Virus record (IMG/VR): IMGVR_UViG_3300027971_000195
Span: 1-26,279 of that record
Direction: 5' to 3' (one strand)
DNA: 26,279 nt
From: a virus
The position numbers and the translations under genes were made by a program. This document shows positions 5,833-25,334 of the stretch, in pieces. Position 1 is the stretch's first letter. Each line of letters begins with the position of its first letter. Under the pieces are notes generated by a model. The model worked only from the letters and a program-made list of their open reading frames with translations. It did not search any database and was not told the origin of the DNA.

Positions 5833-5930
5833 ACTGGCGCGAACGCATCCTGAAAGCCCTAGGCAACGTCCGGTTGTCTGAGATTGAGCCGGTCGGGTGC
5901 GTGGTGGTGAAGATCGGAGAGAAGAAATGA
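5829..5930 (+). CDS. Very small hypothetical protein (33 aa)
   Basis: ATG 5829 overlaps the previous stop and the frame ends at TGA 5928-5930, again overlapping the next ATG. The product MNWRERILKALGNVRLSEIE... is amphipathic and basic at the N-terminus. GGAG for the following gene lies inside its end. Only the coupled start and stop support it. Confidence 0.42.
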   Translation: MNWRERILKALGNVRLSEIEPVGCVVVKIGEKK

Positions 5931-6757
5931 ACATCGAACGGGTTGCTCAAGTTACCGCGCTGTACTCAGGGGCGCATGCAGCGAACGGCGCGAAAATGTG
6001 CGCTATGGAGGCGGTTGCGTTCGTCGCCGGGGAACCGTGGTCGGACCATCCGCAATGCGCTTGCCCGGTAATCGGCGCGTTCATGCGGTCATGGAACGAT
6101 GGCTTGCCGGATGCCGACCGCACCCGCCTGTTGCTCCCGCTAGTGCCAAAGTTGGTTGGCACACGCTCGACCCCAGAGGTTGAATCCGCGCGTGCGTGGA
6201 TGGCGGTCGATTGGCTGACCCGCACGCAGACAGTCGCGTGGTTGCGCCTCGCCAAACTCGACACCCACGCTGACGCAGTTGCTGCACTCCCGGAACTGAC
6301 AGCAACGACTTGGGGAGCGAGCGCGGCGACTGTGGACGCTGCGTGGGACGCTGCGGGGGACGCTGCGTGGGCCGCTGCGAGGGCCGCTGCGGGGGCCGCT
6401 GCGAGGGCCGCTGCGGGGGCCGCTGCGGGGGCCGCTGCGGGGGACGCTGCGAGGGCCGCTGCGGGGGCCGCTGCGAGGGCCGCTGCGGGGGCCGCTGCGG
6501 GGGCCGCTGCGGGGGACGCTGCGGGGGACGCTACGAGGGACGCTGCGTGGGCCGCTGCGGGGGCCGCTGCGGGAGCGAGCGCGGCGACTGTGGACGCTGC
6601 GTGGGACGCTGCGAGGGACGCTGCGTGGGCCGCTGCGGGGGCCGCTGCGGGGGCCGCTGCGAGGGCCGCTGCGGGGGACGCGCTCGCCCCCACCGTCGCC
6701 ATGCTCCAATCCTCCGCAGTCAAACTTGTCGAACGTATGATCGAGGTGAAGCCATGA
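5927..6757 (+). CDS. Alanine-rich tetrapeptide-repeat protein with conserved N-terminal domain (276 aa)
   Basis: The start at ATG 5927 is preceded by GGAG at 7 nt. An N-terminal domain of about 125 residues (CAMEAVAFVAGEPWSDHPQC, then VIGAFMRSWNDGLPDADRTR and ARAWMAVDWLTRTQTVAWLRL) resembles a conserved N-terminus that I recall from phage and bacterial proteins ending in Ala-rich repeats. Residues 137-250 are 27 tetrapeptides of the form (D/A)-A-A-(W/R/G), interrupted once by ASAATV. Then comes a short helical C-terminus (MLQSSAVKLVERMIEVKP). The repeat should form long Ala-rich helices or a solenoid. Similar repeats occur in proteins labelled putative immunity proteins, but that likeness may be compositional. 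Function is unknown. Confidence 0.8.
   Translation: MNIERVAQVTALYSGAHAANGAKMCAMEAVAFVAGEPWSDHPQCACPVIGAFMRSWNDGLPDADRTRLLLPLVPKLVGTRSTPEVESARAWMAVDWLTRTQTVAWLRLAKLDTHADAVAALPELTATTWGASAATVDAAWDAAGDAAWAAARAAAGAAARAAAGAAAGAAAGDAARAAAGAAARAAAGAAAGAAAGDAAGDATRDAAWAAAGAAAGASAATVDAAWDAARDAAWAAAGAAAGAAARAAAGDALAPTVAMLQSSAVKLVERMIEVKP
6335..6676 (+). repeat. 27 copies of a 12-nt coding repeat, in blocks of 20 and 7
   Basis: Each unit is (GAC or GCC) GCT GCG (TGG, AGG or GGG). Twenty units run from 6335 to 6574 and seven from 6593 to 6676, separated by 18 nt coding ASAATV. The region around 6313-6400 and the region starting at 6571 are near copies with an offset of 258 nt, so the second block arose by a larger duplication. 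Variation is confined almost entirely to two positions per unit, both amino-acid-changing. Confidence 0.93.
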
Positions 6758-15026: not shown

Positions 15027-15509
15027 TTAGAACTGGTAAACCATTTCAGTCGCTACGGCACGGAACCCAAGCCGTGACCATAGACTTACCGCACGAGTAT
15101 CGGTCACGGCGCTTACGTTCAGTCGGGAAACCCCCGTCTGCCGCAGTTGATCCAGCCCATAAAGGGTCAGCTTACGGCCAACCCCTTTGCGGTGTTCTTT
15201 GGTAACAAAGAGCGCATCTTCCTGCGCTATCCGGTCGCCATTGTGCATGTCGTTGGTGACATACACATTGGCGTAGCCAACCGGGCGTCCAGAGCAACGT
15301 GCGGTAAACGTCAGCAAATAGCCGCCCCGTGAAGCTCGGAAATACTCATCTAACCGTGGGTTGTAGGGAGAAATCTCGTTGCCGAGAGCGGCCAACCGCG
15401 CCCGCATCTCGCCATAATGCTCCCGGTACAAGGGCTCAAACTCTGAGTATGTAGCCTCAAAGTTTTCAGTCGCTATGGAGTATGTGTCTTGCGCCAAAGG
15501 GCTCACCAT
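15027..15509 (-). CDS. GNAT-family N-acetyltransferase
   Basis: The 160-residue protein shows the GNAT core: a strand GRPVGYANVYVTND, motif A QEDALFVTKEHRKGVGRKL at 96-114 (acetyl-CoA binding loop HRKGVG), and motif B-like VSRLNVSAVTDTRAVSLWSR with LGFRAV, the typical ending of the fold. It would transfer an acetyl group from acetyl-CoA to an amine. The substrate is unknown. It is inserted between the nozzle and the ejection proteins, with 75 nt of apparently empty sequence upstream and no clear ribosome-binding site. GNAT genes are found in this position in other podoviruses, but their role in the virion or host is unsettled. Confidence 0.88.
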   Translation of the reverse strand: MVSPLAQDTYSIATENFEATYSEFEPLYREHYGEMRARLAALGNEISPYNPRLDEYFRASRGGYLLTFTARCSGRPVGYANVYVTNDMHNGDRIAQEDALFVTKEHRKGVGRKLTLYGLDQLRQTGVSRLNVSAVTDTRAVSLWSRLGFRAVATEMVYQF

Positions 15510-15584: not shown

Positions 15585-17120
15585 CTAAACTCCAGGCCAT
15601 CCCGACTGATACACAACGTCAGTTGCGGGCCACTGGATGTCCATGCCTTTGGATGAAGTCTTTAGGTGCAATCCGCCGCAGGTGCCGATACCGGCGATGC
15701 CCTGCCAGCCATTGTTGACAGCCAACCCGGCTCCCCACACAGCAACGTCCCATAGGGACGTATCCCACAGCGCCGTGGTGCCGGGACTGAACGTCAGGGC
15801 AGCAGTAGTGTCGGACAGGTCGAAGTCCACATTCATGCCGATAAACGTAGATGGGATGCCATTGGTCAGCAGGGTGGGACGGACACGGGTGAACTGCTTT
15901 TTCGTACCTCGGGTGTCGAAGTAGTTGAAGGCCTGGATCGTGTTCGTCTGGATCGCCGCCGCGTTGTCGGTATTGTCCGCAGTCCACGACTTGTAGACTG
16001 CCCCGTTGCCACCGAAGTACGGCGTGTTGCTGAACACCTCGTGGCAGTTAGCCGCCCAACCGGTGAACTGACACCAAGCCTTGGTGATCGAGTTCATCAC
16101 GTACTGCTGTTGGCTACCTACGGCCACAGGGACGTTCACCCATAGGGCGTTGTCCTTGGACGAGTAGGTGATGTCCCAACCAAAGGTCGAGCCATAGTTG
16201 TACGTGGCAAGCGCCATAGCGCCCTGAATCTTGTCCGAGAGCGCCACACGCGGGTCCAAGCGGCTGCTTTGCAGCGCGGACGCCAATGGGAATAGGCCGT
16301 CATAAGTGAGGATCAGAAGGTCGCCCGCGTACTTGTAGACGCATCGAGTCCCGATTGGCGAGCCAAGCTGCCATAATCCGGTCAGCGCCCATGTGGCCGC
16401 ACTAGCCGGGTCGGTGCCCCGGTAGACGATCACCTCGCCCTCGGAAGTCACGAATACAAGGTTGTCGTCTACACCGTAGCCAGCATCCAGCGTCCATGTC
16501 GCAACCGCCACAAGGTACCCGCCCTTGCGAGCAACAGACGAAAGATCGAGTGACGCCGCAGCGCCGCTGATGGCAGAGGTAGGGAGATACCACGCCTTGA
16601 GCGTGTTCTTCTGAATGAACCACAAGCGGTTCTTGAACAACTCCACCTGTGAGAACGTCGATGATGTAGCCACGGTGATGGCGGGGGTTGACCACACAGT
16701 GCCGTCGAACACCCGCGCACTGTCAAAGCCGTTGACGATGTAGACGTAGTTCCCGCCCGTGGTGCTGACGTTCACATGCTCCCAACGGGCGTTTGTTAGC
16801 CCCGTGAGCGACGCCGCGCCAACAGCGCCGCTAGACGTGACATCCCAAATGGAAGTGCCCGCAGCAGCGAATAGCTTGCTAGTAGCGCCGCCCGCATACG
16901 AGAACAGGCTCTCGACCTGAGAACCTAGTCCGGTCGCCCACGACGAATACCCGCCCCGAAGCTGGACGCTGTTGACCGTTGGAAACATGTTTTCCAACTG
17001 CACGGCGTCAGTGATTTCCATATTCGCAAGGCTGTCGCGAGCGTTCCACCCGCCAACAGGAGCAGGGACCGATTGGACCTGGGCGTTCTGCTTCTTTACG
17101 AGGCGTTGCGGGCGGAGCAT
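15585..17120 (-). CDS. Tail nozzle / hub protein, P22 gp10-like role (511 aa)
   Basis: The N-terminus QSVPAPVGGWNARDSLANM followed by AVQLENMFPTVNSVQLRGGY is typical of tail proteins that close the short-tail tube. The rest is a series of repeating beta-strand segments with aromatic turns (LFAAAGTSIWDVTSS, YVYIVNGFDSARVFDGTVWS, LVFVTSEGEVIVYRG, LWVNVPVAVG), as expected of a beta-propeller. It follows the connector gene directly and is probably the hexameric nozzle (DNA stabilisation) protein. Assignment is by pattern and order. Confidence 0.75.
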   Translation of the reverse strand: MLRPQRLVKKQNAQVQSVPAPVGGWNARDSLANMEITDAVQLENMFPTVNSVQLRGGYSSWATGLGSQVESLFSYAGGATSKLFAAAGTSIWDVTSSGAVGAASLTGLTNARWEHVNVSTTGGNYVYIVNGFDSARVFDGTVWSTPAITVATSSTFSQVELFKNRLWFIQKNTLKAWYLPTSAISGAAASLDLSSVARKGGYLVAVATWTLDAGYGVDDNLVFVTSEGEVIVYRGTDPASAATWALTGLWQLGSPIGTRCVYKYAGDLLILTYDGLFPLASALQSSRLDPRVALSDKIQGAMALATYNYGSTFGWDITYSSKDNALWVNVPVAVGSQQQYVMNSITKAWCQFTGWAANCHEVFSNTPYFGGNGAVYKSWTADNTDNAAAIQTNTIQAFNYFDTRGTKKQFTRVRPTLLTNGIPSTFIGMNVDFDLSDTTAALTFSPGTTALWDTSLWDVAVWGAGLAVNNGWQGIAGIGTCGGLHLKTSSKGMDIQWPATDVVYQSGWPGV

Positions 17121-17123
17121 AGG

Positions 17124-18026
17124 CTACAGGCCGTAGTTGCTGTCAGGAATGTTGTCGTAGCCGATCAGCACGGTCCCTGGACGCGGAGCGAAGCTAAGAT
17201 TTGCGCTCGACATATCGAGAGCGATTGCCGCCTCAAGTTCCTCGCGGTAGTCGCGGTAGATCGCCGTGGTGTCGAAGCCCTTAGCCTCAAAATACTTTAG
17301 CTTGAGCGCAAGGACCATCAGACGGTCAGGGTAGATGCACGTGTCGGTGTCGATGGTGAAACTCGACTTCGCAACGCCCGCAGCAGTCGCGGCCCATGCA
17401 TTGGAGCGATACTCAAACCCAAGGTACTCAGACGCGCTGAACCCCGGCCAGATTTGGAAGTACGAACCAAACAGACGCCAACGCACACGCGGGCCGGTGG
17501 CGATGTAGCCGGACTGCAACCACTCCCACTGTTGGGCGTCCTCCGGCCCAAGCATTTCCCAACGCTTGGACTTGTCCCACATCGTGCGCGGGATGAGCGC
17601 CTCGTAGTCGGACGGAAGGGCGTACTTCACCTTTTGGAAGTAGATCGTTGCCGCTGTGCCCGCAGCAGTCGGCGTGACCGTCAACGTCACCTGAGTGCCG
17701 CTGTCAACGCTTGCTACAGCATTGTTGTTGGGCAAACCGGTTCCGAGGCAGATGTAGGTAGTGTCCAGCCCGGTCGTAGTAGGAATCGAGGACACAACCG
17801 CAGAGGCAGTAGTCCATGTTCCAGTGGTGGTGAGATAAGACGTGTAGAAGGCGTACTGCTTGGTGAGTGTGCGCCAAGCGTGCTTGCGGAGCAGTTCGTA
17901 TCCCGATGCGTTCAACAGCGCGAGCATCTGCACAGTGTCTTGTGCGGTATTACTCGCGACCGTTGACGGAGCCGCAATGCCCAACTCGCTCGCAGCCTGC
18001 TGCATAAGTTGGAGCATTGTAGTCAT
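17124..18026 (-). CDS. Head-tail connector / tail tubular adaptor protein (300 aa)
   Basis: The helical N-terminus (MTTMLQLMQQAASELGIA, LALLNASGYELLRKHAWRTL) followed by a beta domain (GTQVTLTVTPTAAGTAATIY) and later RRD-like loops (YRDYREELEAAIALDMSSAN) is the pattern of the podovirus adaptor between portal and nozzle (roles of P22 gp4 or T7 gp11). Its place between head genes and the nozzle gene agrees. The motif KHAWRTLTKQYAF occurs in many such adaptors. It would form a 12-fold ring below the portal. Confidence 0.77.
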   Translation of the reverse strand: MTTMLQLMQQAASELGIAAPSTVASNTAQDTVQMLALLNASGYELLRKHAWRTLTKQYAFYTSYLTTTGTWTTASAVVSSIPTTTGLDTTYICLGTGLPNNNAVASVDSGTQVTLTVTPTAAGTAATIYFQKVKYALPSDYEALIPRTMWDKSKRWEMLGPEDAQQWEWLQSGYIATGPRVRWRLFGSYFQIWPGFSASEYLGFEYRSNAWAATAAGVAKSSFTIDTDTCIYPDRLMVLALKLKYFEAKGFDTTAIYRDYREELEAAIALDMSSANLSFAPRPGTVLIGYDNIPDSNYGL

Positions 18027-18029
18027 GGG

Positions 18030-18563
18030 TTATTCCTCGGTGGTGATCGTGCGGGGGCGACCGCGCTTTGCCGCCAGTTCCGTGATCATGGCTTGCGCCT
18101 TGGCGAGTTCCGCTTTCAGTTCGTCCATCTCGGACTTGGTGGCCGTCTTGTTGCGGTTCTGCAAGAACGCACGCGCGCGCTGCTGGAGTGCGACAGCACC
18201 CATACCAACACGCTGCAACTGCGCGTCAGTGGCGGTGGCGACCTGCTCAACAGTCTGGAACTTGAGGATGGTGAGTTCCTCAAGCTGGTTCACGGCGATG
18301 TCGTCGGGGGCTTCTTTCGCCCACTCAAGCAACGGCACGCCAATGGCCGAAACACCCTCGTTGGCCTTCATCGAGTAGTGAAGCCACTGACGCGGGAAGC
18401 GTTCCTTGTGGTAGTCGCGCATCGGCGTGTCGATGATGTTTAACTTGTCGCCGGGCACCATGATGCGGACGTACACCTTGCCGCGATCGGGCATACGCTC
18501 CTGCTCGTAGAACTCTACGAACAGTTTGCTGTCCGCGCCGTTCTCATCGCTGTCCAAGGGCAT
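18030..18563 (-). CDS. Conserved podovirus head-region protein with HhH-like segment and AT-hook tail (177 aa)
   Basis: The segment KVYVRIMVPGDKLNIIDTPM with KERFPRQWLHY is characteristic of a phage family found between capsid and tail genes. Residues about 103-136 (FQTVEQVATATDAQLQRVGM, then ALQQRARAFL) look like a helix-hairpin-helix. A coiled coil follows (MDELKAELAKAQAMITELAA) and the C-terminus KRGRPRTI contains an AT-hook core. DNA or capsid-interior binding is therefore plausible. No function is established from the sequence. The spacing of 3 nt to each neighbour shows it is part of the late run. Confidence 0.72.
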   Translation of the reverse strand: MPLDSDENGADSKLFVEFYEQERMPDRGKVYVRIMVPGDKLNIIDTPMRDYHKERFPRQWLHYSMKANEGVSAIGVPLLEWAKEAPDDIAVNQLEELTILKFQTVEQVATATDAQLQRVGMGAVALQQRARAFLQNRNKTATKSEMDELKAELAKAQAMITELAAKRGRPRTITTEE

Positions 18564-18566
18564 GGA

Positions 18567-18926
18567 TTACGCCGAGGTGATTGATGCCCACGTCGTCGCG
18601 GACGTGGCGAACAGAAGCATCGTCTTGGCAGTAGCAAGTGTGACATTGCTTGCGGCGGCGTTTACGGTCGAGCCGGTTGGGGTGTAAACGGTGATGGTCT
18701 GGCCGCTATCATTGCGGATGCCGACCACAGCACCAGCTTCCGTCGGCGGCAGGGCAACGCCAGTAGAGGCGGAAGAAGTGGTGATAGCGTTCCACGTTGC
18801 AGAAAGCTGTAGTGCAGTGGCGAGGGTGGTGCCAACAGCGACAAGGCCGGTCGCGCCGCTACCCGAGATTGCCAAGGTCGAAAGCGGAGAGTTACCGGCA
18901 GACAGAACTTGTGACGGAATGGGCAT
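18567..18926 (-). CDS. Small beta-rich head-associated protein (119 aa)
   Basis: The start is ATG 18926 because AGGAGG lies 5 nt upstream; a TTG codon one triplet earlier is too close. The protein is rich in Ser, Thr, Ala and Gly with alternating hydrophobic residues (AGAVVGIRNDSGQTITVYTP, GSTVNAAASNVTLATAKTML), typical of a small beta-sandwich such as a capsid decoration or head-fibre protein. No charged or catalytic motif is seen. Its location among head genes is the main support for a structural role. Confidence 0.68.
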   Translation of the reverse strand: MPIPSQVLSAGNSPLSTLAISGSGATGLVAVGTTLATALQLSATWNAITTSSASTGVALPPTEAGAVVGIRNDSGQTITVYTPTGSTVNAAASNVTLATAKTMLLFATSATTWASITSA

Positions 18927-18935
18927 CAAAGCCTC

Positions 18936-20264
18936 CTAGTGATTGACGACAAAGAACCTAGCTTCGGTATCGGTGTGACTGAAGTGCAAAATACCGTATC
19001 GAGAGAACTTCTGCGACCACCAGTCTGCTGGGAACACCGACAGATGTAGTGGTGCGCCGACCAGCGCACCAAGACTATCTGGTACGAGAGAAATCTGAAA
19101 AAACGCCATTTTCACACAAGCCATGATGTTCGTGATGACATCATCAACTAAGTGTGGCTCGATGTGTTCTAGTACGTCAGTGCAGTAGCCTACGTCGCCC
19201 TGCGTACTCATAGGTTCACTGAGGTCAGCGATGATCAGTGGCAGCGTTATGCCGTCATCCAGGCAGTTGTCTGCAAAGTCTACCAGACGGACATCCCACC
19301 CAGTCAGTTTACTGATCTTCGCTCCGCCCCTGCCAGTGCCGCAGCCGAAGTCGATGGCGCGTTTGATATTGTGACCGGCGCAGAGGCCAACAAACAGCGA
19401 TGCGGTATCTTCGCCCGGCGACCAGTCACGGTATGTAGCGTGGTCCCAGACTCTAGAATACTTCTGCTTTTCAGTCATGGCGCCCATGACCATGCTCTTG
19501 GCTATTTCCGGCAGCAGCCCGAAGCCGTGAACAGACACAACGCAGTCAGCGTCGGCTAGCTGTACAGCCGCAGTTTGGAACTCCATCGCCTGTCGGGCCA
19601 TCCAACTAGGGGCGGTGAAGGTTTTGCCATTCAGCATGTAGTCGTTGACGCGCTCATTGACGTTCATAGGCTGCGAATACGCATGACTAACATTATCTGT
19701 GTAGGAACTGTCGAACCCGTAAAGGTCGATGCTTCGGTAGCCCTTGGCGAACATGATCGACATTGACTGAAGGCCAACCGTTGTGCCGCCGCCAATCAGG
19801 GCGCACTCACGGTCGCCAATAATGTCTTCTACCCCCCGGTAGTTTGGATGCCAGAGGGTAACATCGCTGCCCGCAAGCGCGATGAAGCAGTCAGGATGAC
19901 ATTGGGACGCAATCAGATAGTGGTCGGCCTTCCCGCGTGTAAGGAAGTCCAAGTTTTCCTTTCGAGCGTCCAACAAAACAAAGAATTCTGGCTTGATCCC
20001 CGCTTGGGTAAGCATCCCAAGGGAACCGTTCATCGCGACGACTACGCCTTCGCCAGCTTGCTGCCGGGCTTTGATCGTCGGCAAGAAGGCCCGTACAGAC
20101 GGCCCTCCGCCGACGATCATTGCGGTACCCAAACAGGTATCTTCGGACATCAGCAACCAAGAGAGCGGAAGATCACTCGCCAAACGCATATTGGCGAGAA
20201 TCTCCGCATCTCCTGTGTTGCAGGATGCCGGGATCATGTCGTCCAGATTGGACGGCAGGATCAT
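18936..20264 (-). CDS. Fusion of a DUF115 (MAF/MptE-like) domain with a class I SAM methyltransferase (442 aa)
   Basis: Residues about 45-260 carry the DUF115 pattern: AMIVGGGPSV at 48-57, QAGIKPEFFVLLDA at 87-100, IGGGTTVGLQS at 157-167, and IDLYGFDSSY at 179-188 followed by HA at 194-195. DUF115 is shared by motility-accessory-factor glycosyltransferases, which add nonulosonic acids to flagellin, and by an archaeal pterin pyrophosphokinase. Residues about 300-442 are a Rossmann methyltransferase with motif I AIDFGCGTGRGG (303-314) and CTDVLEHIE (361-369). The gene starts 1 nt after the decoration gene without a ribosome-binding site. Parts are visibly AT-richer than neighbouring head genes (25 G+C of 60 at 19081-19140). 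Glycan transfer with methyl capping is inference. Confidence 0.85.
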   Translation of the reverse strand: MILPSNLDDMIPASCNTGDAEILANMRLASDLPLSWLLMSEDTCLGTAMIVGGGPSVRAFLPTIKARQQAGEGVVVAMNGSLGMLTQAGIKPEFFVLLDARKENLDFLTRGKADHYLIASQCHPDCFIALAGSDVTLWHPNYRGVEDIIGDRECALIGGGTTVGLQSMSIMFAKGYRSIDLYGFDSSYTDNVSHAYSQPMNVNERVNDYMLNGKTFTAPSWMARQAMEFQTAAVQLADADCVVSVHGFGLLPEIAKSMVMGAMTEKQKYSRVWDHATYRDWSPGEDTASLFVGLCAGHNIKRAIDFGCGTGRGGAKISKLTGWDVRLVDFADNCLDDGITLPLIIADLSEPMSTQGDVGYCTDVLEHIEPHLVDDVITNIMACVKMAFFQISLVPDSLGALVGAPLHLSVFPADWWSQKFSRYGILHFSHTDTEARFFVVNH

Positions 20265-20265
20265 G

Positions 20266-20802
20266 CTAGGTAACCGCGCCCTGCTTGTGGGGGCGGTTGA
20301 TCGACACGATCACCGTAGAGGTAGTAGACGTAACAGTCGCAAGATTCGCGGAGCGAGCGCCGAGAATCTGTTTGCCCGATGCCGCAGTAGCCATGATCTG
20401 ACCAGTCGTCGCCGACTGGTACACAGCGACCTGGGCGCTGGTCGCAACGGCGGTTTTCTTAATAACCGCCAAGCCACCAATCTGATACCAGCCAAACAGG
20501 CCAGCCGTGTTGGCAGACATCGCTACGGCGACGGGGCCAGCAAGGTTAGCGGTGTTGGCAGACAGCGCAGTCTGATAGGTCGTTGCGTTGTAGGAGACAA
20601 GAGACCCAACAGCAGTGCTGGCAACGCCCAGCAGCATGATGAACTCACCTTCGCCGTAGGTGGGATCATACGCCCGCGCCACCATCCCCAGCGTAGCCGG
20701 GGGGGTAGGAATCGCGGACGAGGCGTTTGCGGGGGTGTACCCACTGTCAGTAGACGCGACGGCAAGCATTCCGGCGCGGTTTTCAACCCAAGAATAAGCC
20801 AT
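20266..20802 (-). CDS. Capsid decoration / cement-type protein (178 aa)
   Basis: The gene lies 14 nt downstream of the major capsid gene and has a strong AAGGAGGG site. After the start AYSWVENRAGMLAVASTDSG, the sequence is small-residue-rich with beta strands (GEGEFIMLLGVASTAVGSLV, GPVAVAMSANTAGLFGWYQI, SAQVAVYQSATTGQI), which suits a beta-barrel capsid-surface protein. Position next to the capsid gene and high predicted expression support a decoration role. The family is not firmly identified. Confidence 0.72.
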   Translation of the reverse strand: MAYSWVENRAGMLAVASTDSGYTPANASSAIPTPPATLGMVARAYDPTYGEGEFIMLLGVASTAVGSLVSYNATTYQTALSANTANLAGPVAVAMSANTAGLFGWYQIGGLAVIKKTAVATSAQVAVYQSATTGQIMATAASGKQILGARSANLATVTSTTSTVIVSINRPHKQGAVT

Positions 20803-20816
20803 GTTCTGCGCCCTCC

Positions 20817-21818
20817 TTAAGCGATCAAGCAGCCGCTGAATTGCGGGCCGCTAGAGGTGAGGTTGCCAGCCCAACCGATGAGCTTCACGATGGCGTCCTG
20901 GTTGACAGCCTGACGCTCGCCTCCGATTGGTACGAAGTTCCGATCAGCGTGCGGGCGGAAGAAGATGTAGCTCGTGTTGAGGAACCACATGTGGTTCGCC
21001 GTAGCCGCAGCGCCGACACCGCCATCGAGGACGACATCGGACGCCATGCCAGCGCCGTAGTACTTGAGGGACGCGAAACCAGCGCCCTGCTTGCTGTTGC
21101 CGCCATCGGTGATGCGCTGGATCGACTGCAACGACTGCAAGTAGAACTTGTAGTAGTTGTTGTCGGCAACGATCAGGTCCGGCTTGTCAGTGCCACGGAT
21201 AAGCTGAACGGCCAGGGCGTCCATGTACGCCTGGATGTTCGATGCCGTCACCGCAGAACCACCGTCCGTAACGCCCGAGTACTTCACCGAGCGCCAGAAC
21301 GAGAAGTTGGCCCGGTCGATGCCGCCGTAGGTGCCCGAAGAAGGAGCATCAGGGACGGCAGCGGCGAGGCCGGTGATGTTCTTGCCGGAGTTGCCCGTGC
21401 CGTCGAGGTAGATGTCCCCGCCGATGCGGTTCGCCAACTGCGCTTCCGCGACGTTCATACGGCCATCAAGCAGGTCGATGATCGCCTCTTTGCCGCTGTT
21501 CTGGATCATCTCCAGACCAGAGATCGACACCGCCGAGGCGTACTGCGTGATCGGGAACTGAGCCGCCGAAATGGGCGAGTTCTGGCCCACGTTCAGGATT
21601 TCGTAGCCGGAGTACGAGTTGGTGTTGTTGGTGGTCGAGTCGTTGTACATGATCTCCTGCAAGATCACGTTACCGCCCGAGAACGTCTTGACGTTGCCGC
21701 GCTCTTTCAAGCGCCGCAGCAAGGCGTTGTTGTTCGTTACGTTGTCGGCCAGTTCACCACTACGCGACTGAATGTTAGTCGCAATGATGTCACTGATCGA
21801 AGTGTTAGCGAATGCCAT
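20817..21818 (-). CDS. Major capsid protein (333 aa)
   Basis: The gene follows the scaffold gene and has AGGAG 8 nt before the ATG. An N-terminal arm (NIQSRSGELADNVTNNNALL) leads into the HK97-type capsid body: a spine-like YASAVSISGLEMIQNSGKEA, LLDGRMNVAEAQLANRIGGD with YLDGTG, then PDLIVADNNYYKFYLQSLQS and RNFVPIGGERQ near the C-terminus. The length is usual for podovirus capsid proteins without a protease-cleaved delta domain, which agrees with a separate scaffold gene. It forms the icosahedral shell. Confidence 0.9.
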   Translation of the reverse strand: MAFANTSISDIIATNIQSRSGELADNVTNNNALLRRLKERGNVKTFSGGNVILQEIMYNDSTTNNTNSYSGYEILNVGQNSPISAAQFPITQYASAVSISGLEMIQNSGKEAIIDLLDGRMNVAEAQLANRIGGDIYLDGTGNSGKNITGLAAAVPDAPSSGTYGGIDRANFSFWRSVKYSGVTDGGSAVTASNIQAYMDALAVQLIRGTDKPDLIVADNNYYKFYLQSLQSIQRITDGGNSKQGAGFASLKYYGAGMASDVVLDGGVGAAATANHMWFLNTSYIFFRPHADRNFVPIGGERQAVNQDAIVKLIGWAGNLTSSGPQFSGCLIA

Positions 21819-21838: not shown

Positions 21839-22855
21839 TCAGAGGCGCTCCTCAATGTTGTTGAGTTGCTCAGACAACATGGAACGCCTGTCTTGCGCCT
21901 TGGGGGTCGTAGGGGAACCGGGTGTGGCACCGCGAACGCTTACCGCAGCAGCTCGTGCCGATTTAGCAGCCCTGTCGGCTGCTGCCCGCTTCGCCGCGTC
22001 CACTTGGCCTTGTTGGGCCATCTGGGACGAAATGGCCGGATCGAGTCTTATCGCCTTAGTATACGCTTCGTTAAGGTCTTTTGCCAACCCAGAACGTAGC
22101 ATCTGTACCATGACAGGCCGCACCGCCTCGAAATGCTCCTTATCCTGAGCAAACGTGCGGATTTCCGAGGTGATCGTATCGGCCTCGGCTTGCTCCCGCG
22201 CGAGGCGCTGCCCCTCCATTTCGCCGCGCATCTGGAGCATCTGCTGCTGCAAAGCGTGGTAGTTGGGGTCTACAGCGGTCTGCTGCGGAGACGCACCGGC
22301 AAGCGCCTGTAAGTCCACACCGTAGTTCTGAGCGAGGCGGGCGAAGTAGGCCAGTTTGTCCTGACCCTGAGCCGTCCGCATCGTATGGTCGGCTTCCATC
22401 AACCCCTTCACGGCAGTCGGCACATCGATGCCGAGGCCCTGAATGGTTGCTAGGTACGGCTTGGAGACTTCGCTGATCTTGTCTGCCAGTTGCGCCTTGG
22501 TCAGCAGCGGCTCAACTCCGGCGCGCATCTGTTCCTCGCGCTGGAAGGCGTACTCGCGCAAGGCGGGGTCGGCCTTGTTCCAGACCTCGTGGTATTCCTT
22601 CTTCCACGACGCCGGGGGCTTGTGCCACGGCTTTTCTTCAACGGGGGCAGCGCCGATGGGGGCGGCATCCTTCGCCGGTTTGGCGGTCAGGACCGGGCGC
22701 TTTTCAGCAACCTTATCGGCGGCGAACTTGCCAGCCTCATCGCGGGTACGGGCCGGTTTCTCGGGCTCTACGGCCTCGATCTCGGAGAACTGTTGATCGA
22801 GTAGTTCCTTGCGGGTGTCCTGTGGGGCTTCCGGCAGTTCGTTCAAGTCGTCCAT
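21839..22855 (-). CDS. Capsid scaffolding protein (338 aa)
   Basis: Placed directly before the capsid gene, this highly charged, helical protein has the composition of a podovirus scaffold. It has an acidic N-terminus (MDDLNELPEAPQDTRKELLD), a PWHKPPASWKKEYHEVWNK motif frequent in this family, long helices (MLQMRGEMEGQRLAREQAEA), and an Ala/Arg/Lys-rich C-terminal segment that would bind the capsid interior (VDAAKRAAADRAAKSARAAA). It would template procapsid assembly and leave before maturation. The ATG is in a TAATG overlap with the preceding stop. Confidence 0.82.
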   Translation of the reverse strand: MDDLNELPEAPQDTRKELLDQQFSEIEAVEPEKPARTRDEAGKFAADKVAEKRPVLTAKPAKDAAPIGAAPVEEKPWHKPPASWKKEYHEVWNKADPALREYAFQREEQMRAGVEPLLTKAQLADKISEVSKPYLATIQGLGIDVPTAVKGLMEADHTMRTAQGQDKLAYFARLAQNYGVDLQALAGASPQQTAVDPNYHALQQQMLQMRGEMEGQRLAREQAEADTITSEIRTFAQDKEHFEAVRPVMVQMLRSGLAKDLNEAYTKAIRLDPAISSQMAQQGQVDAAKRAAADRAAKSARAAAVSVRGATPGSPTTPKAQDRRSMLSEQLNNIEERL

Positions 22856-23187
22856 TATCTTCCTCGGCTGTGGGCCTGATGGCGGATTTCAGCAAGCAGC
22901 TTGTTAGCTTGCCGGTCGGTCATGTTGTCGAGTTGTTGGTGTAGACGCCGCCGCCGGTAATCGCGGTTTGGCGGTGCGGATTGCGATACGGCGGGGATGT
23001 CGTTCCCCACCTCTACGCAACCGTGGTCCCGCAGAAGGGTGCGGTGTTCGCTGCGGCTGGTGATGATCTTGCCGTTAATCATGTTCCGGTACGGCTTGAT
23101 GTCCGACATGATCTGAGGAGCAAAAACGGGGGATGAATCCACCCCCTTTTCCACCAACTTGCCGTTGCGGTAGACCCAAACGGTCAT
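22855..23187 (-). CDS. Conserved small phage protein between portal and scaffold (110 aa)
   Basis: The opening TVWVYRNGKLVEKG and the core SDIKPYRNMINGKIITSRSE followed by HRTLLRDHGCVEVGND are widely conserved in podoviruses just after the portal gene. The C-terminus is a basic amphipathic helix (DYRRRRLHQQLDNMTDRQAN). The start overlaps the portal stop as ATGA, and its own stop overlaps the scaffold start. Function is unknown; position suggests head assembly. Confidence 0.78.
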   Translation of the reverse strand: MTVWVYRNGKLVEKGVDSSPVFAPQIMSDIKPYRNMINGKIITSRSEHRTLLRDHGCVEVGNDIPAVSQSAPPNRDYRRRRLHQQLDNMTDRQANKLLAEIRHQAHSRGR

Positions 23188-25334
23188 ACGGGCTGCATGA
23201 CCCCAGGCTTGCCATATTCAGCTTGGACAGCCTTTTGCTGCGCGGCCTGTTGAGCCAGCGCCATATCGGCTTGCAACTTGCGTTCGTCCATCGCAATTCG
23301 CGCTTCTAGTTCACGCGCCTGCATCTCCAGCTTCTTCTGCTCAATCATCAGGTCAGCGGCCATTTTCCGTTCCGCCATCGCGGCGTCACGCGCTGCCGAT
23401 TGTTCATCGAGCGCGGATTGAGCCTGAGCCGCCTGAGAATCCAACTGGAGTTTCTGTTGGGCCAACTGTAGGTCGTTCTGCATCTTCTGCTGTGCCATCT
23501 GACCGTCAGTTTGCATCTTCTGCATCTGCATCTGCTGGTCAGCTTGCTGCTTTTGCTGCGCTAGTTGCAACTCGGCCTTTGCCTTCTCCATCGCTGGATC
23601 AGGTGGCGGAGGACCGGGGGGTTGCATGGCCGCTTGCTTAACCTCGTCCAACGCAGCATCCAACGCGCCCTCGACCTGCGCGGCCTCTGGGAACGCGGCA
23701 ACGCCGAACTTGAGCAGTTCGATGAGGATCGGCAGGGCTTTCGGATTCGATTGGACAACCGGGACCGCGTTCTGGAGGAACGTCCCAATCGCCGCGATGA
23801 ACTTCATCCGGTCGTCTTTGAGTTGCGTTTCGTCAATCTGGATCAGACTGTCCGTGGCGACCTCGATACGGAACGCCCGCATGGGATCGTCACTGAGCAA
23901 CGCAAGCGCCTGGGGAACCAACTGCTGGTCAGGCTGCGACAAGGCCCCCGCATCGGCGTACTTCGTCAGTGTCTCTGGCTGGAACTTAGAACAAATGATG
24001 TGGGCCTTGAGCCGCAGCAACCCGCTTGCGAAGTGCGCGACTTCGGTTTGCAGGGCCTTCAAGCGGAGCCCTGCGTACTGGCCCTTGATCTGTTGTGCAG
24101 TCGCGGTTTCCGAGGCTGTGGTCTGACCACGAATGATGTCGGAGATACCAGTGATCTCGTAGACCTGTTGCTTGATTTGGTCGTGGGCCTTATAGGCCTG
24201 AAGCAACGTGTTGGCGATAACATCCAACGGCAGAATGTCGATGCTGCCCTTTAGGCCGCCCTTCTCCGAGAACGACATCCACTTATCGACGGGGATAAGC
24301 GTGTTGTTGTCGCCCTCAGTCAGAAGGCGCTGGAGCGCAGGTACGGACGCATCGTAGACGCCACGAACACGCAGCGCCTTCACCAAGCCATCAATGCGGT
24401 CGGTCAGGATGTCGAGTTCGTTCGCCTGATCCTGGTACAGCAGGAAGTCCGGCACCGGTACAAGGCTATCGCTCGTGGTGGTCGAGTACAACGGTTTCGG
24501 GCAGGGGAAGAACTGTTCCAACTCCAACGGATCATCGCGCTCGTCGATGATGTCGAGGCCGTCCTTCTGGAACCAATAGACCTTGCCGGTTTCCTTGTCC
24601 CACAACTCACAGATGCGAGCGCGAGTAGGGTCGCCTTTTTGCGCTCTGGTTTTGAGCGGATCAGGCCCGCTTTCGAGGGGAATCTTGTCCGCAACCTCTG
24701 TGCCGAAGCGTTCTTCCAGGGCGTCCTTGGTCATGTAGACCCAACGCCAAACGGCGGTCACTTCCTCCCAAGTACGCGCTACCGAATGGCCGAAGTCGTC
24801 CCAATGGACGTAATCGACCGGCGCGCACTCGTACTCAATTTCCTCTTGGACTTGTACGGGTTCGTCAACATCATCAGTGACGGACGTAACCTCTACACCG
24901 TCCTCCGGCTCATCGGCGGGGGCCTGCGGCTTTACATGAGGCTCATACCGCGCCCACGCAGTTCCACGTCCGCCAAGGAAGCGGTCTTGGACCGCAGCGG
25001 ACATGGTGGTGCGATAGTCGGGGTAATGTTCAATCTCGAAATCCAACGCGCGCTCAAGCAGAAGCGAAGCAACGCGAGCGGTTGGATCGTTGTCACGGAA
25101 GCGGCGGGCAACTGATGCCTTCGGTGTCTTGGCGTAAACAGCCGGGATCAACGTCTGGACGTTACTCCAGAGGATGTTGAAGCGGGCCATCTCATTGTTG
25201 GACTGCCCACGGTTGTCGTCACGATACCGCTTGATGATCTTGCGGTTGCGCTCCTCCCACTTCTTGAACTCGGTATCGTAGGCCGAGACAAGATCGAGGT
25301 ACTTCTGGAGCGTATCGGTGACGAGTTCCTTCAT
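23184..25334 (-). CDS. Portal protein, P22 type (716 aa)
   Basis: The length and motifs fit P22-type portals. An N-terminal helical wing (KYLDLVSAYDTEFKKWEERN, then RFNILWSNVQTLIPAVYAKT) is followed by RGTAWARYEPHVKP, WDKETGKVYWFQKDG, and the stem and crown segments. The latter include YEITGISDIIRGQTTASETA and QQIKGQYAGLRLKALQTEVA. From about residue 570 there is a Pro-rich turn and a long Gln/Met/Lys/Ala coiled coil (MQMQKMQTDGQMAQQKMQND), the barrel extension typical of this family. The dodecamer forms the DNA entry channel and the terminase docking site. The start overlaps the preceding gene as ATGA. Confidence 0.94.
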   Translation of the reverse strand: MKELVTDTLQKYLDLVSAYDTEFKKWEERNRKIIKRYRDDNRGQSNNEMARFNILWSNVQTLIPAVYAKTPKASVARRFRDNDPTARVASLLLERALDFEIEHYPDYRTTMSAAVQDRFLGGRGTAWARYEPHVKPQAPADEPEDGVEVTSVTDDVDEPVQVQEEIEYECAPVDYVHWDDFGHSVARTWEEVTAVWRWVYMTKDALEERFGTEVADKIPLESGPDPLKTRAQKGDPTRARICELWDKETGKVYWFQKDGLDIIDERDDPLELEQFFPCPKPLYSTTTSDSLVPVPDFLLYQDQANELDILTDRIDGLVKALRVRGVYDASVPALQRLLTEGDNNTLIPVDKWMSFSEKGGLKGSIDILPLDVIANTLLQAYKAHDQIKQQVYEITGISDIIRGQTTASETATAQQIKGQYAGLRLKALQTEVAHFASGLLRLKAHIICSKFQPETLTKYADAGALSQPDQQLVPQALALLSDDPMRAFRIEVATDSLIQIDETQLKDDRMKFIAAIGTFLQNAVPVVQSNPKALPILIELLKFGVAAFPEAAQVEGALDAALDEVKQAAMQPPGPPPPDPAMEKAKAELQLAQQKQQADQQMQMQKMQTDGQMAQQKMQNDLQLAQQKLQLDSQAAQAQSALDEQSAARDAAMAERKMAADLMIEQKKLEMQARELEARIAMDERKLQADMALAQQAAQQKAVQAEYGKPGVMQPV

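Follow-up and report, generated by a model that had tools for sequence, protein, structure and literature searches.

Maf enzymes attach nonulosonic acids to surface-exposed Ser/Thr residues of flagellin by O-glycosylation, and one Maf takes CMP-Neu5Ac and Kdo (PMC11339370). The central domain of Maf resembles the sialyltransferase Cst-II, and a weak likeness to methyltransferases is described for the N-terminal domain of Maf (PMC11339370). Glycosylation of virions is reported for the mycobacteriophages Che8 and Rita, in work cited in PMC11256854. In the related phage Maravista, glycosyltransferases are located near the 3' end of the genome, outside the head block (PMC11256854). Here, a gene joining a PF01973 domain (MptE-like, formerly DUF115) to a methyltransferase domain is described from the head operon of a short-tailed phage. 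The window, which is the whole stretch of DNA analyzed, is a single virus record of 26,279 bases.

The head operon of the window lies on the minus strand. Its order is portal (23184..25334; phrog_12082, E 3e-180), a 110-aa protein, a probable scaffold (21839..22855), the major capsid protein (MCP, 20817..21818; phrog_9953, E 1e-103), a virion structural protein (20266..20802; phrog_29386, E 3e-26) and the fusion gene (18936..20264). These are followed by a small Ser/Thr-rich protein of 120 aa (18567..18926), p177 (18030..18563; phrog_20268, the Mx8 p50 homologue), a tail/adaptor protein (17124..18026; phrog_6013), a phrog_5107 protein, a GNAT acetyltransferase and other tail or internal genes. 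The probable scaffold is homologous to Mx8 p47, and its position suggests the scaffold role; the phrog_29386 protein is the homologue of Mx8 p49. The MCP is about 50% identical to those of Myxococcus phages Mx8 and Mx9, Stenotrophomonas phage BUCT555 and Bradyrhizobium phage ppBjS10J-1. The phrog_5107 gene (15585-17120, minus strand; E 4e-119) bears the PHROG label "amidase" and has no Pfam match. Its homologues are annotated as head closure or stabilization proteins, and the label is probably wrong. The GNAT acetyltransferase (15027-15509, minus strand; PF00583, E 1.6e-10) sits between tail and internal virion genes. This position is kept in Mx8, Mx9, BUCT555, ppBjS10J-1 and RHph_I3_18, and therefore a second possible virion-modifying enzyme is conserved family-wide. 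Elsewhere in the window, 28 copies of a 12-base repeat (CGCTGCGGGGGC) at 6337-6681 are open in several frames on both strands; they lie inside an early ORF of the plus strand (5897-6757) that encodes Ala-rich repeats.

The fusion gene starts with the ATG at 20264, ends at 18936 and encodes 442 aa. It is identified by ORF calling, Pfam and PHROG matches, relatives and dN/dS. A search of IMG/VR finds 271 relatives of the protein, with identities of 40-93%. Against the closest relatives, dN/dS is 0.11-0.13 for the fusion gene and 0.09-0.11 for the MCP, and both domains are constrained by purifying selection. A chance ORF is ruled out by the profile matches, the fold, the 271 relatives and dN/dS. 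No near-identical DNA is found among deposited phages; uncultured phage proteins resembling the fusion already carry the label "MptE-like" from automatic annotation. In one relative (L049:1-1643), the methyltransferase part is out of frame with DUF115, leaving two ORFs, which could reflect decay or a sequencing error.

As the earlier note observed, the G+C content of the gene is locally low: it is 54.4%, the window as a whole has 60.0%, and just 0.2% of segments of the same length are lower. No Shine-Dalgarno sequence is visible before the ATG (gcagggcgcggttacctagcATG) either, but this is not distinctive, because several other genes of the operon also have none and the stop codon of the upstream gene lies 1 base 5' of the ATG. 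The strong ribosome-binding site of the 120-aa gene overlaps the end of the fusion gene.

The Maf-like domain is defined by Pfam, PDB profile match and fold at residues 18-258 (19491..20213, minus strand). Its PF01973 core corresponds to residues 47-190 (19695-20126, minus strand; E 8.2e-15, 55.4 bits against a cut-off of 34.6), and PF01973 is above the cut-off in 21/21 contigs tested, the window among them. The domain contains the motifs GGGPS, DAR, SQCxP, GGGTTVGL, GFDSS and HAYxQ. The nucleotide-binding motif GGGPS is conserved, and GGGPS, GG.TV, G.D.S and H..Q are kept even in a reversed fusion, described below, with about 29% identity in the DUF115 domain. The same motifs are partly visible in the alignment with Maf. 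In an AlphaFold model of the fusion protein, with 21 window-family sequences as input and a mean pLDDT of 87, the best solved structure found by Foldseek is Maf of Magnetospirillum magneticum (5mu5). VIA-align places model residues 18-258 on Maf 244-504 with Z 22.4 over 224 residues (rmsd 3.1). No GT42 sialyltransferase chain is among the matches listed by Foldseek and VIA, where matches of the methyltransferase domain crowd the list.

The PF01973 family also includes pterin pyrophosphokinases. It is very unlikely that the first domain has MptE activity and serves synthesis of a folate-type cofactor during infection. This would agree with the Pfam family name and with a weak profile match to MptE (8sd5; E 0.006, residues 18-94 only) in a search against PDB sequences. 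The same search matches Maf 5mu5 at E 1.9e-9, which together with the Z of 22.4 is far better, and both the partner domains (methyltransferase or glycosyltransferase) and the slot among virion genes speak against a pterin enzyme.

The second domain is a class I SAM methyltransferase domain at residues 262-442 (18939..19481, minus strand), assigned by phrog_24759, fold and alignment. It contains the motifs DFGCGTGRG and CTDVLEHI, of which the former is an intact SAM motif I (E/DxGxGxG), in a Rossmann fold. The PHROG profile phrog_24759, "methyltransferase", matches residues 277-422 (E 1.3e-9). Pfam methyltransferase models fall on about residues 301-396, all below their cut-offs, and the identity is therefore settled by the predicted fold. 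VIA-align places residues 262-442 on many class I methyltransferases with Z of about 17 over 160-186 residues. METTL6 and UbiG are among these neighbors in fold, as are sugar methyltransferases (TylM1, CalS10 and DesVI). The class I methyltransferase fold is a common one. A search of PLSDB plasmids for the methyltransferase found none. DUF115 fused to a class I methyltransferase, as proposed from the sequence at the outset, is borne out for both intact domains by profiles and by structure prediction.

The placement between head genes is likewise confirmed, and it recurs. Among 104 distinct DUF115 genes, the upstream neighbor is the phrog_29386 protein in 76 and the MCP in 7, and the downstream neighbor is the Ser/Thr-rich protein in 69 and p177 in 23; the remaining neighbors are mostly contig edges or unrecognized. 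Where the neighbor is resolved, phrog_29386 or MCP is upstream in 83/85 and the Ser/Thr-rich protein or p177 is downstream in 92/95. The gene thus occupies a fixed slot among virion genes. No DUF115 gene is seen in the head blocks of Mx8, Mx9, BUCT555 and ppBjS10J-1, and all Mx8-like relatives examined (74/74 loci) are without it. In these relatives, MCP and p177 are a short distance apart or have other genes between them, many of which look surface- or fibre-like when the sequences are judged by eye.

In an MCP tree of 75 rows, the clade of the window (support 100) has the gene in 17/17. Elsewhere in the tree, 55 rows are without the gene, and L137, L145 and L150, long branches of less sure placement, have it. 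The fewest gain or loss changes on this tree are 4, and the starred branches force 3. The earlier note regarded the gene as inserted, acquired cargo. The low G+C and the absence from Mx8-like relatives stand, and they are compatible with an ancient gain. Recent cargo is rejected by the clade-wide presence: because it is fixed in the clade of the window and under purifying selection, the gene is, on these sequence comparisons, an old resident and not passing cargo. Bacterial genomes were set aside as a guide to the host, the four matching MAG contigs (Baikal Gammaproteobacteria, Chloroflexota, Paludibacter and Acidithiobacillales) being probably misbinned virus.

Among the head genes, those for the two small proteins that flank the fusion gene have the highest Ser/Thr content, with means of 25% and 20% against 8-15% for portal, scaffold and MCP. 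In the window, S+T is 22% in the phrog_29386 protein and 32% in the 120-aa protein, which has 3% charged residues and no Pfam or PHROG match. The 120-aa protein is a candidate decoration protein and a candidate acceptor. Its homologue is detectable in 83/92 DUF115 loci and in 0/74 others, with a detection profile that leans toward the type of the window. Strict dependence of DUF115 on this neighbor is rejected, as these counts come mostly from one clade and the DUF115 lineages L137, L145 and L150 are without it. The neighbor is missing or moved in DUF115 phages L113, L137, L145 and L150, and therefore it cannot be the sole acceptor. In L069, L070 and L073-L080, a second, longer homologue of the 120-aa protein (an open frame of about 260-306 aa) lies upstream of DUF115, which thus has a relative of this protein on each side.

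The fusion is modular. L045/L046, L061/L062/L066 and L069-L080, all in the clade of the window or near it, have no methyltransferase, which is therefore dispensable for the DUF115 part. In L064/L067/L164, a GT-A-type glycosyltransferase (phrog_1962, E 3.6e-29) is found in place of the methyltransferase. In the related phages L169-L176, a phrog_1962-type glycosyltransferase gene also stands on its own, directly upstream of the portal gene.

The pairing of DUF115 and methyltransferase near capsid genes, for which a survey of phage genomes had been suggested, is found in other phage groups. In a different and widespread group (166 matches), the two domains are fused in the reversed order in one chain of about 475 residues, with the methyltransferase at 51-172 and PF01973 at 229-398 (E 2e-23). 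The gene lies in a virion-gene block and is flanked by two small Ser/Thr-rich proteins of the phrog_644 type; the MCP, about 7 kb upstream, is of another PHROG family (phrog_371). Between the window and this group, identity is about 45% for the methyltransferases and about 29% for the DUF115 domains, which suggests that the modules were joined separately. Siphoviruses related to MW202621 have consecutive separate genes for the MCP (phrog_247), a methyltransferase and a DUF115-like protein. This split-gene case is only probable, because the assignment rests on weak E-values (Pfam 0.002, phrog_4603 0.006) and the motif GGAPSL/GGGPSL; the AlphaFold model of the DUF115-like protein has a pLDDT of 41, and its profile comparison with the window family is not significant. 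In L177, the order is MCP (phrog_771/264), a 152-aa protein, a DUF115-like protein (phrog_4603, 7e-38) and a phrog_1962 glycosyltransferase. Next to these (L177:6654-10395) come radical-SAM-like and methyltransferase proteins, as judged by eye, and together these genes may form a larger cassette for modification.

Roseobacter phage CRP-9 has a related methyltransferase alone, directly behind the coat gene. This would suit direct methylation of a virion protein, with DUF115 as a nucleotide-binding partner or recognition module. Such a role is rather improbable for the fusion, given that the active-site motifs of DUF115 are conserved and that DUF115 also occurs without a methyltransferase and pairs with glycosyltransferases.

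Related genes are also present in cultured phages. The family phrog_4603, "alpha-2,3-sialyltransferase", has members in 73 phage records. In D3, phPA-G and Psp6, a phrog_4603 gene lies behind the MCP, and a few genes further along there is a methyltransferase. Between its capsid and head-closure genes, TV-S20 has a sialyltransferase-like gene, a gene for a GT-D glycosyltransferase (E 3e-25), a second sialyltransferase-like gene and a methyltransferase gene. In XacN1, CM1/RAS14 and JK004, phrog_4603 and phrog_1962 matches are at most about 1.5 kb apart. In a late region of P1, 1.2 kb separate pmgO (phrog_4603) from pmgQ (phrog_1962 type). The earlier note could not point to a described phage system of this kind; this is not quite right, as sets of sialyltransferase-like, glycosyltransferase and methyltransferase genes occur in the late or head regions of D3, Psp6, TV-S20 and P1, with putative functions.

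The P1 homologues are named "putative morphogenetic function". Accordingly, the product could act in morphogenesis, or be an enzyme directed at some other target such as a nucleotide or small molecule, and only travel with the head genes; late-operon genes need not act on virion proteins. We consider this improbable, since the catalytic motifs are conserved and lytic growth of P1 does not require pmgO, pmgP and pmgQ (PMC10695390), which fits an accessory modification.

In Caulobacter phage CcrColossus, the related gene is located after the tail genes, with lysis genes and a family 9 glycosyltransferase close by. This location would fit late modification of a host surface glycan (LPS, capsule or S-layer glycan) that would help progeny to leave the cell or exclude other phages. 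Lipooligosaccharide is the substrate of the related sialyltransferases of bacteria, and the host O-antigen is often changed by glycosyltransferase genes of phages. A host-glycan target is nevertheless unlikely for the fusion, as several phage groups have the gene within the virion-gene block, no host-glycan genes were recognized by eye among the extra genes of the block, and Maf, the closest solved fold, acts on protein.

The comparison among phages favors a virion-modifying role. The recurrence of the same enzymes in the virion-gene blocks of several phage groups suggests that these phages decorate their own virions with methylated sugars. About half of our confidence goes to a reading, based on sequence and model, in which the fusion is a cytoplasmic O-glycosyltransferase modifying a virion surface protein, with a methyltransferase that methylates the sugar. 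The product would be a late, bifunctional sugar-modifying enzyme. Its Maf-like domain would take a sugar from an activated donor made by the host and attach it to Ser/Thr of a virion surface protein that has just been synthesized; the likeliest acceptor is one of the two small structural proteins on either side. The transferred sugar would then be O- or N-methylated by the methyltransferase domain and so capped, and the benefit may be an altered particle surface. CMP-sugar synthetase and NeuB families (PF02348 and PF03102) have no match in 21 contigs, which are possibly incomplete. With no donor-synthesis genes there, a host donor would be needed. CMP-Kdo is made by Gram-negative hosts and suggests itself should the host be one of these; the donor could be this or another CMP-linked nonulosonic acid, or equally another nucleotide sugar.

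It can be speculated more broadly, and only tentatively, that a single-chain, two-step virion glycosylation enzyme (Maf-type, with CMP-Kdo or a similar host donor and a methyl cap) was assembled several times independently in different tailed-phage lineages, in both domain orders and with exchange for a second glycosyltransferase. If the two-step reading is true, capsid glycosylation would be a widespread trait of environmental phages, and glycosylation of capsid or decoration proteins would be common in uncultured phages, with enzymes of a family familiar from flagella. Genes of D3 and P1 now called only "alpha-2,3-sialyltransferase" or "putative morphogenetic" would also gain a function, and in these phages the question is directly testable. 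This bears on the contact of phage particles with surfaces, mucus, host glycans and immune systems.

Compared with Maf 5mu5, the window protein shares the central PF01973 fold and the motifs GxGPS, TV, GxDxxx and H..Q, and by analogy Ser/Thr of surface proteins would be the expected target. It differs in being only 17% identical, in matching only Maf 244-504 and in having a methyltransferase instead of the N- and C-terminal domains of Maf. Maf genes are among flagellar genes, whereas the window gene is in a phage late operon. The phrog_4603 proteins (D3 orf7 region, Psp6, TV-S20, P1 PmgO and CcrColossus) are related to the PF01973 domain and lie behind the capsid gene in D3, Psp6 and TV-S20, with methyltransferase and/or glycosyltransferase genes nearby. 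Unlike the fusion, they are separate short proteins, distant in sequence (the window protein has no hit to phrog_4603) and putative in function. The phrog_1962 family (P1 PmgQ) is fused to DUF115 in L064/L067 exactly where the methyltransferase sits, and is absent from the window protein. To our knowledge, no DUF115 enzyme takes part in the glycosylation of Che8 or Rita. In the open-licence literature, nothing was found on DUF115 in phage virions or on a DUF115-methyltransferase fusion in a head operon. As far as the citation in PMC11256854 goes, Che8 and Rita are a precedent for glycans on capsid proteins of tailed phages, made by other glycosyltransferases, and here again the earlier remark on described systems is not quite right. 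Virion glycosylation is thus already known, from mycobacteriophages with other enzymes, and a DUF115-methyltransferase form of it in a head operon would be new.
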